The notes beneath the pieces were generated by a model. The model searched no databases. It was not told the origin of the DNA and saw only the letters and a program-made list of their open reading frames with translations. A DNA stretch of 64,000 bases from an uncultured Bryobacteraceae bacterium (GTDB lineage: Bacteria; Acidobacteriota; Terriglobia; Bryobacterales; Bryobacteraceae), in the NCBI GenBank assembly GCA_938027685.1, contig CALJAM010000023.1, positions 1-64,000 on the forward strand, in the 5' to 3' direction. The stretch's first letter is position 1. Every line of letters begins with the position of its first letter. Positions 17,654 through 20,397 of the stretch are shown here, piece by piece. The translations under genes and the position numbers were made by a program.

Positions 17654-19273
17654 CTACCGCACGGCGACCGCCCGCGCCAGCACGGCTGCCGACGCCTGTG
17701 CCATTTGCTCGAAATAGCGCACGAAGCGCTGCGTTTCGAAGGCCTGGTAGCCGCGAAGGTTGGCCGCCCAGCGGAAGGCGATCGGCTGGTAGTAAAGCTG
17801 GGCTGTGATCTGGAAGGGGCCGGCGTCGGGCGGCACGCGAATCGCCAGCCGCACTCGATCGCCCCCGCCCGTGAAGTCCTCGTCGCCGACGGCGCCGCCG
17901 TAAACCGCGATCTCTTTGTCCGCGCTGCGCTTGTCGAAGCCGTGAGGAAGCAACCGGTTGTCCTTCAGGTAGCTCATCGCGCTGAGCAGGCCCGTGGTGG
18001 GCACGCCCGCCTCATCACCCATCACAGCTTCGTAAATTTGCACCTGGTCGGCGCTGCGGATCTCACGGTAATGCGGCTCGAAGCGCCGCGGATCGGCGTC
18101 GTTGTCGTTGCCCTGGATAGATCCGTCGGGAGCGAGCGCGCCGGATTCGAAAAGCACACGACCGTTCCGGTCGCGCACGGCGATGTGCAGCCACGCGCGG
18201 CGCGAGGGATAAGCCGTCGGCAATTTGTGGCCGGTGAGATTCTCGACGCGAATGAAGGCTTCGAGCAGACCATCCCTCGGCGTGACGTCTTCGATGGTAA
18301 CGCGGGCCGCCTCGCGCTCCAGGTGCTCGAGGGTTTTGATCGCCCCCCGCCCGAGAGCCTGCGGTGTGGCCGTTACCGCCAGCTCGTTGCGGAAGCGATT
18401 GAGCAAACGCAACATGAAAAAATTGCCGCCCAGGAAGCTGTGGCGGGAGACGCCCTCGCGCATTTGGCCGAGAACGGCGGAGATGGGCGCAGGGGAGGTC
18501 AGCTCGGGCATGTGACAGGCCTGGCAGCTCTTGGTCCCGCGATACTCGCTGTGGAGCCACTCCAGGTACGGCACCTGTTCGGGGAACTCGGCCACCGGCT
18601 TGCCGGAGGCGTCCAGCGTGTGCGTGATGAGGGTATGGCAGGTGGCGCAAAGCTCCGATTGTCGGATGTGCTCGGAGCGCACGGGCCGGAACTCGGACGA
18701 AGAGCTCATGATTCGCGCCCTGCCGGCATCGACGTCGTAAGGGCCGAACGCCACCCGCAGACCGTTCGAACCCTCGTCGATCAGAAAGCGGCCCACGAAA
18801 CTTTCGCGGCTGCCCAGCCGTTCGCGCGCGATCTGGTGACACAACGAGCACGAGACGCCGTCGGCTGCGAGGCGGTCCGCCCTCTCAGCGGAGTTGAACC
18901 GGGTGTGAGCGAAAACTCGACCTTCGCGGCCTTCCCGATGCGCCTCGTAGCTGGCCATGGGCATGTGGCAGACGGCGCACTCCGCTTCGATGGCCGCCGC
19001 CTGCGAAGGATGATCCATCACTTCGCGACGCACGCCCGCCTGCCAGTACGGATCGCGCGCGGAGTTGGCCATCATGGTGGCGCTCCACTCGTGACCGATG
19101 GAATGATCTTTGCCCGAGGCGGAGACCAGGCCGTTGTGACAGGCAAAGCAGCGGTCGGAGGTCTGGAAAACCGCCGTGTTACGCGTGCGGGCAGGCGGAG
19201 CCGACGCCCGGAGCGCCGCCAACAACACCAGCGTTCCACCCAGGAAAACGGCATATCGGGAAAGTCCCCGCAT
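17654..19273 (-). CDS. Exported pentaheme c-type cytochrome
   Basis: 539 residues with a signal peptide at 1-25. There are five CxxCH heme sites: CFACH (42-46), CAVCH (99-103), CSLCH (142-146), CATCH (209-213) and CQACH (250-254). Heme residues fill the first half. The second half (about 300-539) has no CxxCH and contains a domain with beta-rich segments such as GLLEAFIRVENLTGHKLPTA and WLHIAVRDRNGRVLFESG. AGGGGG precedes the ATG by four bases. The gene begins 11 bp after the cytochrome-barrel fusion, so both probably act in one electron-transfer chain. Similar multiheme proteins include c554-type and uncharacterised reductase subunits; no enzymatic role can be assigned. Confidence 0.85.
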   Translation of the reverse strand: MRGLSRYAVFLGGTLVLLAALRASAPPARTRNTAVFQTSDRCFACHNGLVSASGKDHSIGHEWSATMMANSARDPYWQAGVRREVMDHPSQAAAIEAECAVCHMPMASYEAHREGREGRVFAHTRFNSAERADRLAADGVSCSLCHQIARERLGSRESFVGRFLIDEGSNGLRVAFGPYDVDAGRARIMSSSSEFRPVRSEHIRQSELCATCHTLITHTLDASGKPVAEFPEQVPYLEWLHSEYRGTKSCQACHMPELTSPAPISAVLGQMREGVSRHSFLGGNFFMLRLLNRFRNELAVTATPQALGRGAIKTLEHLEREAARVTIEDVTPRDGLLEAFIRVENLTGHKLPTAYPSRRAWLHIAVRDRNGRVLFESGALAPDGSIQGNDNDADPRRFEPHYREIRSADQVQIYEAVMGDEAGVPTTGLLSAMSYLKDNRLLPHGFDKRSADKEIAVYGGAVGDEDFTGGGDRVRLAIRVPPDAGPFQITAQLYYQPIAFRWAANLRGYQAFETQRFVRYFEQMAQASAAVLARAVAVR

Positions 19274-19284
19274 AAAGCCCCCTG

Positions 19285-20397
19285 CTACCAGCCTTCGGTC
19301 AGGCCCCCGTCGAATCGGTCCCAGAGCAGATAAAAGACGAGCTGCACGGAACGGCCGGTCGTGTGATTGGCCGGGATGCGCACCCCGAAATTGGCGCGGA
19401 TGTGCTGGCGGCGGCTCAGGGTGACGTGCAACTGCGGCACGACGTCCCAGAGCACTCGGGCGCCGGTCTCGAACTCCCGATCGGCCAGGAACTCTACCAT
19501 GGGCGCCCAGTACCGCCCGTCTCCTCTCCGTTGGCTGAACCCGCGCCCCATCGCCGTGCGCCAGAAGGCGGCACGAGGGGCGTCCCGGGTGCGCGTGGGC
19601 AACTCCAGGCCTGCTTGAAATTGGAGAAACCCTTCCGAAGGCAACAATTGGCCCCAGGCGACAAAGGGTTCGAAAACGGTCACGCCGTTGCCGAAACCGC
19701 GAGCCTCGTCACCCGTGGGCAACACGGCCTCGATTGCCGCGCTTAAGATCGAGCCTCTGCGCAGTCCGTGCACGAGCACCCGCTTGTAGCTCAGAGCCAG
19801 GTCGCCTACGCCGCCGCGCCAACTGGCATTCGCGGGTTGGGCGAAACGGAATGGCAACACGGCCTCCACCTGATCGCGTGCGCTCACTCGCTTCTCATAA
19901 ACCCACTTGCTGCTGAATGCACGCGGCTTCCGCAGCTTGAACGCGTTCGTGACCACCGTCTCGTCTTCGGGGTACGCCTTCGTGGTGAAGAGCGCTCGCG
20001 GCAGGTTCAGTTCCCCGCGCGGCCACTTAGGCTCGGAACAGAAGCTGCGCAGGTAATCGACCACGCTGTCGATCTGCTCACGCGTGAGGGCTTCTCCGAA
20101 GGCGGGCATGATGGGCGAGAATCCGCGGGCCGGTCCGCCCTGGCGAACCACGGCTGCCCAATCCCCAGCCTGCTCGCGGGTGGCGAAATTGCAATCGGTG
20201 AAATCCGGCAGCGGCGTCTCGAAACCCACCTGCGAGCGGTCCTGCCCGCGTCCATCGAATCCGTGACAAGCTACGCAGGCAGTGCGGTAGACTTGCTCGC
20301 CCGAGTCCGGTTTCTGGCTCCAGCCCGCCTGCCAGCCCCAAATTAGAAGCAAAAGCAACGCCCGGGCCGCCGAGGCCCGTCTGCCCGGCTCCGCCAA
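19285..20397 (-). CDS. Monoheme cytochrome c fused to a probable outer-membrane beta-barrel
   Basis: 370 residues from a TTG start at 20397, which has GGGAGG five bases upstream and leads straight into a signal peptide (ARALLLLLIWGWQAGWSQ). Residues 30-125 form a class I cytochrome c domain: CVACH at 41-45, a possible axial Met in SPIMPAFGEALT, then IDSVVDYLRSFC. Residues about 145-370 are beta-rich with alternating hydrophobic residues (GVGDLALSYKRVLVHGL, ILSAAIEAVLPTGDEA, GFLQFQAGLELP, RANFGVRIPANHTTGR), resembling the 'transporter'/MetA-type barrel. This gives a Cyc2-like architecture: heme domain plus porin in one chain. The longer frame to 20529 would overlap the divergent gene. Barrel assignment is inferred from pattern only. 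Confidence 0.65.
   Translation of the reverse strand: MAEPGRRASAARALLLLLIWGWQAGWSQKPDSGEQVYRTACVACHGFDGRGQDRSQVGFETPLPDFTDCNFATREQAGDWAAVVRQGGPARGFSPIMPAFGEALTREQIDSVVDYLRSFCSEPKWPRGELNLPRALFTTKAYPEDETVVTNAFKLRKPRAFSSKWVYEKRVSARDQVEAVLPFRFAQPANASWRGGVGDLALSYKRVLVHGLRRGSILSAAIEAVLPTGDEARGFGNGVTVFEPFVAWGQLLPSEGFLQFQAGLELPTRTRDAPRAAFWRTAMGRGFSQRRGDGRYWAPMVEFLADREFETGARVLWDVVPQLHVTLSRRQHIRANFGVRIPANHTTGRSVQLVFYLLWDRFDGGLTEGW

Follow-up and report, generated by a model that had tools for sequence, protein, structure and literature searches.

Among the described systems close to the locus analysed here is Cyc2, a 16-strand outer-membrane porin modelled on OprO/OprP, in which a motif, AXPXFAR[QK][TY], sits just before the CxxCH and the heme has been argued to lie at the periplasmic mouth (PMC8406198; this and the other papers cited by PMC number are cited for the parts of them that were available). 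In Acidithiobacillus, the electron acceptor of Cyc2 is rusticyanin, a blue copper protein (PMC10654088). The PHC family comprises ExtKL, Gsu2801 and the cable-bacteria pentaheme cytochromes and is structurally like c552 and the archaeal nanowire AvECN; its cable-bacteria members, which have a pentacoordinated heme, are regarded as potentially catalytic (PMC11976967). ExtHIJKL supports part of metal-oxide reduction in Geobacter, and its ExtKL component is reported as periplasmic (PMC6148476). COG4313 channels, which are associated with the uptake of hydrophobic molecules, would have a pore of 10-12 Å without their N-terminus, a segment that nearly closes it (PMC4493636).

The locus lies in a window (the whole stretch of DNA that was analysed, 64,000 nucleotides) from an uncultured Bryobacteraceae bacterium and resembles these systems only in part. 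Like Cyc2, it encodes a single-CxxCH domain joined to the N-terminal side of an outer-membrane barrel, here a predicted one; like MtrAB and PioAB, it sets a barrel gene beside a multiheme gene, but with five CxxCH and 12 predicted strands in place of a decaheme and a 26-strand barrel. In the literature searched, which covered few subscription papers and no preprints, no title or opening of an abstract describes a 12-strand cytochrome fusion or such a pair, and no paper in it mentions PF13557 together with 'cytochrome c'. The features are as follows.

19285-20397, minus strand: gene for the cytochrome c-barrel fusion protein P0001, 370 amino acids, TTG start (sequence and relatives)
20317-20397, minus strand: signal-peptide-like N-terminal stretch of P0001, without a lipobox Cys (sequence; helix 4-25 in the model)
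20038-20313, minus strand: class I cytochrome c domain of P0001, residues 29-120 (Pfam, alignment)
20263-20277, minus strand: CxxCH of P0001, residues 41-45 (sequence)
19963-20037, minus strand: conserved linker of P0001, residues 121-145, a candidate barrel plug (A1 alignment; plug by analogy with COG4313, PMC4493636)
19318-19962, minus strand: predicted 12-strand outer-membrane barrel of P0001, residues 146-360 (predicted structure; PF13557 in 11/40 family members)
19288-19317, minus strand: conserved C-terminal tail of P0001 with an invariant Gly-Trp (A1 alignment)
19274-19284, minus strand: intergenic gap between P0001 and P0002, 11 nt, with a purine-rich, ribosome-site-like stretch (sequence)
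17654-19273, minus strand: gene for the pentaheme cytochrome P0002, 539 amino acids, with a c552/PHC/ExtKL-like fold (sequence, profile, model)
18512-19150, minus strand: five-CxxCH stretch of P0002, residues 42-46, 99-103, 142-146, 209-213 and 250-254 (sequence, A2 alignment)
17657-18316, minus strand: C-terminal Ig/fn3-like part of P0002, residues 320-539 (model and structure match)

Both open reading frames, the 11-bp gap and the count of one CxxCH against five are as an earlier, sequence-only reading of this DNA had given them. P0002 follows downstream on the same minus strand, starting 11 nt after the stop codon of P0001, and a plausible ribosome-binding stretch precedes both genes (for P0001, GGGAGG 5 nt before the TTG start). 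The pair stands alone in the window, because its upstream neighbour is a divergently oriented gene matching Peptidase_M14 and its downstream neighbour encodes a PLP-dependent enzyme. Across 63 longer loci (5.6-19 kb), gene-family clustering found no third family common to more than five, a count that sets aside large clusters which, from coordinates and letters, are taken to be antisense or alternative readings of the two genes; a larger operon around the pair is rejected on this basis. The ExtKL system differs here too, the absence of a common third gene at the pair loci being judged by family clustering rather than by the names ExtH and ExtJ.

The N-terminal stretch of P0001 would be a signal peptide, judging from its sequence and modelled helix. 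The domain that follows (approximately residues 29-118) matches the Pfam models PF13442 (41 bits, cut-off 27) and PF00034 (35.6 bits, cut-off 21.3) around the single CxxCH, and class I cytochrome c models match every member of a 40-row alignment of fusion proteins (A1). A1 shows no variation at the CxxCH, at Met97 or at the C-terminal Gly369-Trp370; given these sites, the domain arrangement is, on alignment evidence, beyond chance, and Met97 is likely to be the distal ligand of a His/Met heme. Cys69 is kept in 40/40 and Cys120 in 38/39 A1 rows, and the equivalents of both are absent together from the distant rows L093, L096 and L097, as expected if the two are disulphide partners. The linker of ~25 residues behind the cytochrome domain is still recognisable in rows at ~30% identity, and many polar or charged residues of the barrel part are invariant across the 40 rows.

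An AlphaFold2 model of P0001 built on A1 (pLDDT 88.2, pTM 0.82) has 12 long strands between residues 146 and 360 (10-residue blocks at pLDDT 86-98), within the 8-16 foreseen for an outer-membrane barrel, although the barrel spans ~215 residues rather than the ~225 first proposed and begins only behind the conserved linker 121-145. The best 20 Foldseek rows are all FapF and COG4313 chains, and VIA-align superposes the model on FapF (5o65; Z 22.8, rmsd 2.6, 221 aligned) and on COG4313 (4rl8; Z 22.1, rmsd 2.6, 216 aligned), with 12-strand KdgM-type porins next in its list (Z ~20). In the proposed comparison with PF13557-like barrels, 11 of 40 fusion family members match at an E-value of 0.01 or lower (the best at 7.4e-09); P0001 itself has no such match, and its C-terminal part has none in Pfam. 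This part is confidently predicted to be a 12-strand outer-membrane barrel nearest to FapF/COG4313, and not the globular, non-barrel C-terminus that would have spoken against the sequence-only reading. P0001 thus resembles COG4313/PF13557 channels and FapF in its 12-strand fold (Z ~22) and departs from them in carrying a c-type cytochrome, with a conserved linker in the place of the 14-residue plug of COG4313 (PMC4493636).

Set beside Cyc2, the fusion has 12 predicted strands against 16, a FapF/COG4313/PF13557-type barrel against one modelled on OprO/OprP (PMC8406198), a class I heme domain of ~90 residues and, as usual partner, a pentaheme protein. The Cyc2 motif occurs in 0/40 A1 rows and in 0/86 distinct fusion open frames, one of which (L031) is without the CxxCH part and another of which has fewer than 16 residues upstream. 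Membership of Cyc2 is ruled out by the strand numbers and the missing motif, and the heme domain is of class I, as first supposed, rather than of the Cyc2 type. An origin independent of Cyc2 had also been proposed; the features compared (strand number, barrel type, motif) are consistent with the fusion having arisen separately.

All five CxxCH of P0002 are present in each row of a 35-row alignment of pentaheme proteins (A2). Its model (pLDDT 87.5) matches Thermochromatium tepidum c552 (5ze8) with Z 25.0, rmsd 3.0 and 21% identity over 352 aligned of 385 residues, while the second-best structure row (Z 8.9) covers the Ig-like part only; a profile search (hmmsearch) agreed, matching 5ze8 at E 8e-06, mainly through one C-terminal stretch. 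The NCBIfam ExtKL model matches 24/35 pentaheme family members at E 0.001 or better. P0002 is not ExtKL proper, an assignment ruled out by its score of 28.9 bits against the ExtKL equivalog NF040886, far under the curated cut-off of 250 bits. By profile and predicted fold, it belongs among the PHC/c552-type pentaheme cytochromes as kin of ExtKL, sharing with the PHC family (ExtKL, T. tepidum c552 5ZE8, cable-bacteria sPHC and lPHC) the five CxxCH, an Ig-like C-terminus and the 5ZE8 fold; unlike ExtKL, it has as barrel partner a 12-strand cytochrome fusion and not the 21-strand ExtI (PMC6148476). Outside the motifs, His 88, 278, 349 and 401 are invariant (35/35) and His 202 is kept in 31/35 A2 rows; because four His are invariant and one nearly so, most P0002 hemes could be bis-His. 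The source genome has one PHC match.

Fusion and pentaheme genes travel together. Among 399 genomes sampled from the class, a long fusion match (at least 280 bits) is present in 41, a close pentaheme match (E no higher than 1e-90) in 43 and both in 40, where ~4 would be expected from the frequencies alone. The sole fusion genome without a close pentaheme gene is G006; the converse holds for G082 (gene at a contig end), G333 (fusion fragmented) and G370, in which the pentaheme gene (L060:6058-7740) stands alone and a fusion match is absent from the genome. At 70 of 86 distinct fusion loci, a pentaheme gene follows immediately downstream in the same orientation; 13 loci lack it there and 3 end with the contig. 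The co-occurrence on which the sequence-only reading had staked itself therefore stands for 40/41 genomes and 70/86 loci, and fails at 13 of the 83 loci with downstream room and for the solitary gene of G370. Aligned ends in paired loci lie at most 221 nt apart, except at L059 (811 nt). In L059 (G195), the pentaheme gene is split across two overlapping frames and looks decayed or mis-assembled. The fusion and pentaheme trees correlate (Mantel r 0.85, 68 pairs, 0/999 permutations as high), which would equally follow from plain shared descent.

The pair is not confined to the Acidobacteria: fusion-bearing records are titled Bryobacteraceae, Bryobacterales, Acidobacteria, Fodinibius sediminis, Rhodothermales, Planctomycetes, Phycisphaerae, Gemmatimonadetes, Kofleriaceae and Deltaproteobacteria, and a Rhodospirillaceae-titled record has the fusion as a piece at a contig end. 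Of the named loci, 15/16 are from metagenome-assembled genomes, so the phylum labels carry that risk, and phyla beyond the organism's own are covered by a single scan; the sole named-strain carrier is F. sediminis DSM 21194 (L033). In a sample of the phylum, 36/297 genomes match the fusion at E 1e-30. On these sequence comparisons, fusion and pentaheme genes are a conserved two-gene unit across several phyla. More distant pentaheme homologues (35-43% identity) occur at 10 places in the class sample; none of the seven examined (L061, L062, L063, L064, L065, L066 and L067) has a fusion gene beside it, and the genes next to those in L061, L063 and L064 are unrelated. A search of 72,556 plasmid records with P0001 found no match at E 1e-15.

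At 8 of the 13 unpaired loci (L049, L086, L089, L090, L091, L092, L095 and L098), the same-strand gene directly downstream belongs to one cupredoxin-like family. A C-terminal carboxypeptidase-regulatory domain was found by Pfam in all four rows scanned, out of eight; in the domain ahead of it, His124, Cys161 and His164 are invariant (8/8), and the residue after a Trp is Met in 6/8 and Thr in 2/8. We take this His-Cys-His-Met order to be that of a type 1 copper site. Against the PDB, the best match of the family profile is to the carboxypeptidase-like part (NOMO2, 2.5e-09); the small domain of copper nitrite reductase (E 1.1e-05) and a blue copper domain protein (5.7e-05) also match, amicyanin only weakly (0.85), and the NCBIfam amicyanin model finds 1/8 rows, under its cut-off. 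The source genome gives three matches to this family, all to the carboxypeptidase-regulatory part only. Cupredoxin-partnered loci fall at three separate places on a 'quick' tree of the fusion protein, three being the minimum forced by starred branches, with the deepest joins unsure and a long-branch warning where L089 and four more meet L093 and two more. Two genomes (G479 and G496) hold one fusion copy with each kind of partner. A cupredoxin-like gene thus adjoins the fusion in some relatives, much as rusticyanin shares the rus operon with Cyc2 (PMC10654088). The swap suggests, at the level of gene content, that the fusion is one electron-exchanging outer-membrane piece with interchangeable carriers, and electron transfer is therefore favoured as its role.

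The other five of the 13 unpaired loci (L093, L096, L097, L099 and L104) have neither partner, L097 having only 425 nt downstream; a DUF4399 gene lies near L099 and L104, and the part of L093 and L096 that was examined holds no redox neighbour. L093, L096 and L097 form the most distant fusion subfamily; a short way upstream, all three have a gene for a sigma-54 response regulator, and these genes belong to one family. As for iron, FeoB lies within a few kb of the pair in two lineages only among the loci searched: in Phycisphaerae (L034:516-4214), where DtxR, Fur and FeoA domains precede it on the same strand, and in Rhodothermales (L036:8736-11135 and, as a piece, L044:8731-9099). This neighbourhood is a hint of an iron link and only that. 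MtrB and PioB found no match in the source genome, in a search in which 14 control genomes gave none either.

Computation shows the fusion itself, the fold and number of strands predicted for its barrel, the fold of the pentaheme protein, the pairing and the swap of partners; the location, electron transfer between fusion and partner, its substrate and its direction we infer. The reading that we put forward, at a probability of roughly 0.45, is that the pair is a two-gene outer-membrane redox module, Cyc2-like in its working, with a PHC or a cupredoxin as carrier. The fusion would sit in the outer membrane as a FapF/COG4313-type 12-strand barrel. Both ends of barrels of this sort normally face the periplasm. 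The class I cytochrome domain should not fit in a pore of COG4313 size and, because it exceeds the lumen and both barrel ends face the periplasm, the His/Met heme should be positioned at the periplasmic mouth; the conserved linker would reach into the lumen and plug it in part, by analogy with the COG4313 structure (PMC4493636). The earlier proposal of a 'conduit' through the membrane is not borne out, given the single heme and a barrel too narrow for a pentaheme protein, to judge from the 10-12 Å of COG4313 (PMC4493636); the pentaheme protein should not be able to sit within 12 strands, and on the same reasoning a membrane-spanning heme wire finds no support. Because one heme alone cannot span the membrane, the substrate would have to enter the pore: a small soluble one, perhaps Fe(II) or another small reductant, would reach the heme and be oxidised there, and its electrons would pass to the periplasmic PHC-type protein or, in some lineages, to the cupredoxin-like protein, and from that carrier to the periplasmic respiratory chain. 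Fe(II), also suggested by the sequence-only reading, is a guess by analogy with Cyc2, to which the FeoB neighbourhood adds a weak hint. Most likely, the pair operates as Cyc2 does with rusticyanin and, on the pentaheme side, as ExtI does with ExtKL, without belonging to either system.

Several observations weigh against this scheme or its parts. Near-closure of the COG4313 pore by its N-terminus (PMC4493636) would, by analogy, count against substrate entry. The five unpaired loci with neither partner count against the redox-module reading as a whole. Many fusion carriers may be ordinary aerobic heterotrophs. The potentials of a His/Met heme and a c552-type protein are likely to differ, which weighs against a set direction. 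Electrons might instead run the opposite way, from the periplasm through PHC or cupredoxin to the barrel-bound heme and an outside acceptor, or the PHC might be exported and act outside, perhaps in filament form as the archaeal nanowire of related fold does. The c552 fold of P0002, related to ExtKL and the AvECN nanowire (PMC11976967), and the support that ExtHIJKL gives to part of Geobacter metal-oxide reduction (PMC6148476) speak for such outward flow, which we nevertheless regard as unlikely: the cupredoxin-like stand-in fits a higher-potential carrier better than a low-potential filament, ExtKL is reported to be periplasmic (PMC6148476) and no sign of a filament was seen here.

The stand-in also bears on a marginally less probable reading, in which the barrel serves as a selective channel for uptake or exit and the cytochrome and its partner are a periplasmic redox enzyme for an imported small molecule, no respiratory electrons crossing the membrane: a cupredoxin-like substitute for the PHC argues that the partner is a carrier, not an enzyme, even though COG4313 channels are tied to hydrophobic-molecule uptake (PMC4493636), cable-bacteria PHCs are potentially catalytic through a pentacoordinated heme (PMC11976967) and A2 has only four invariant non-motif His, the fifth being present in 31/35. 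Least probable is a barrel that is a mere outer-membrane anchor, or a FapF-like secretion channel, holding a cytochrome engaged in periplasmic housekeeping; the closest fold, FapF, is indeed a secretion channel, but the invariant polar and charged barrel residues and the invariant tail over 40 rows are seemingly beyond the needs of an anchor, and family clustering shows no common third gene around the pair.

Under the two-gene redox module preferred here, a FapF/COG4313-type 12-strand barrel with an acquired class I cytochrome and exchangeable periplasmic carriers (pentaheme PHC or cupredoxin) may, at a little under even odds, represent a further, independently arisen means of exchanging electrons at the outer membrane, alongside Mtr-type wires and Cyc2, and one that has spread as a gene pair through about five phyla, among them lineages that are not noted for iron metabolism. 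Cyc2- or Mtr-based searches would miss such carriers, because their barrel and heme domain come from different families. The partner swap offers a natural experiment, in which a single outer-membrane piece is joined with two kinds of carrier. Should the reading prove true, many Acidobacteria, Rhodothermales, Planctomycetes and others would have access to electron exchange at the cell surface.
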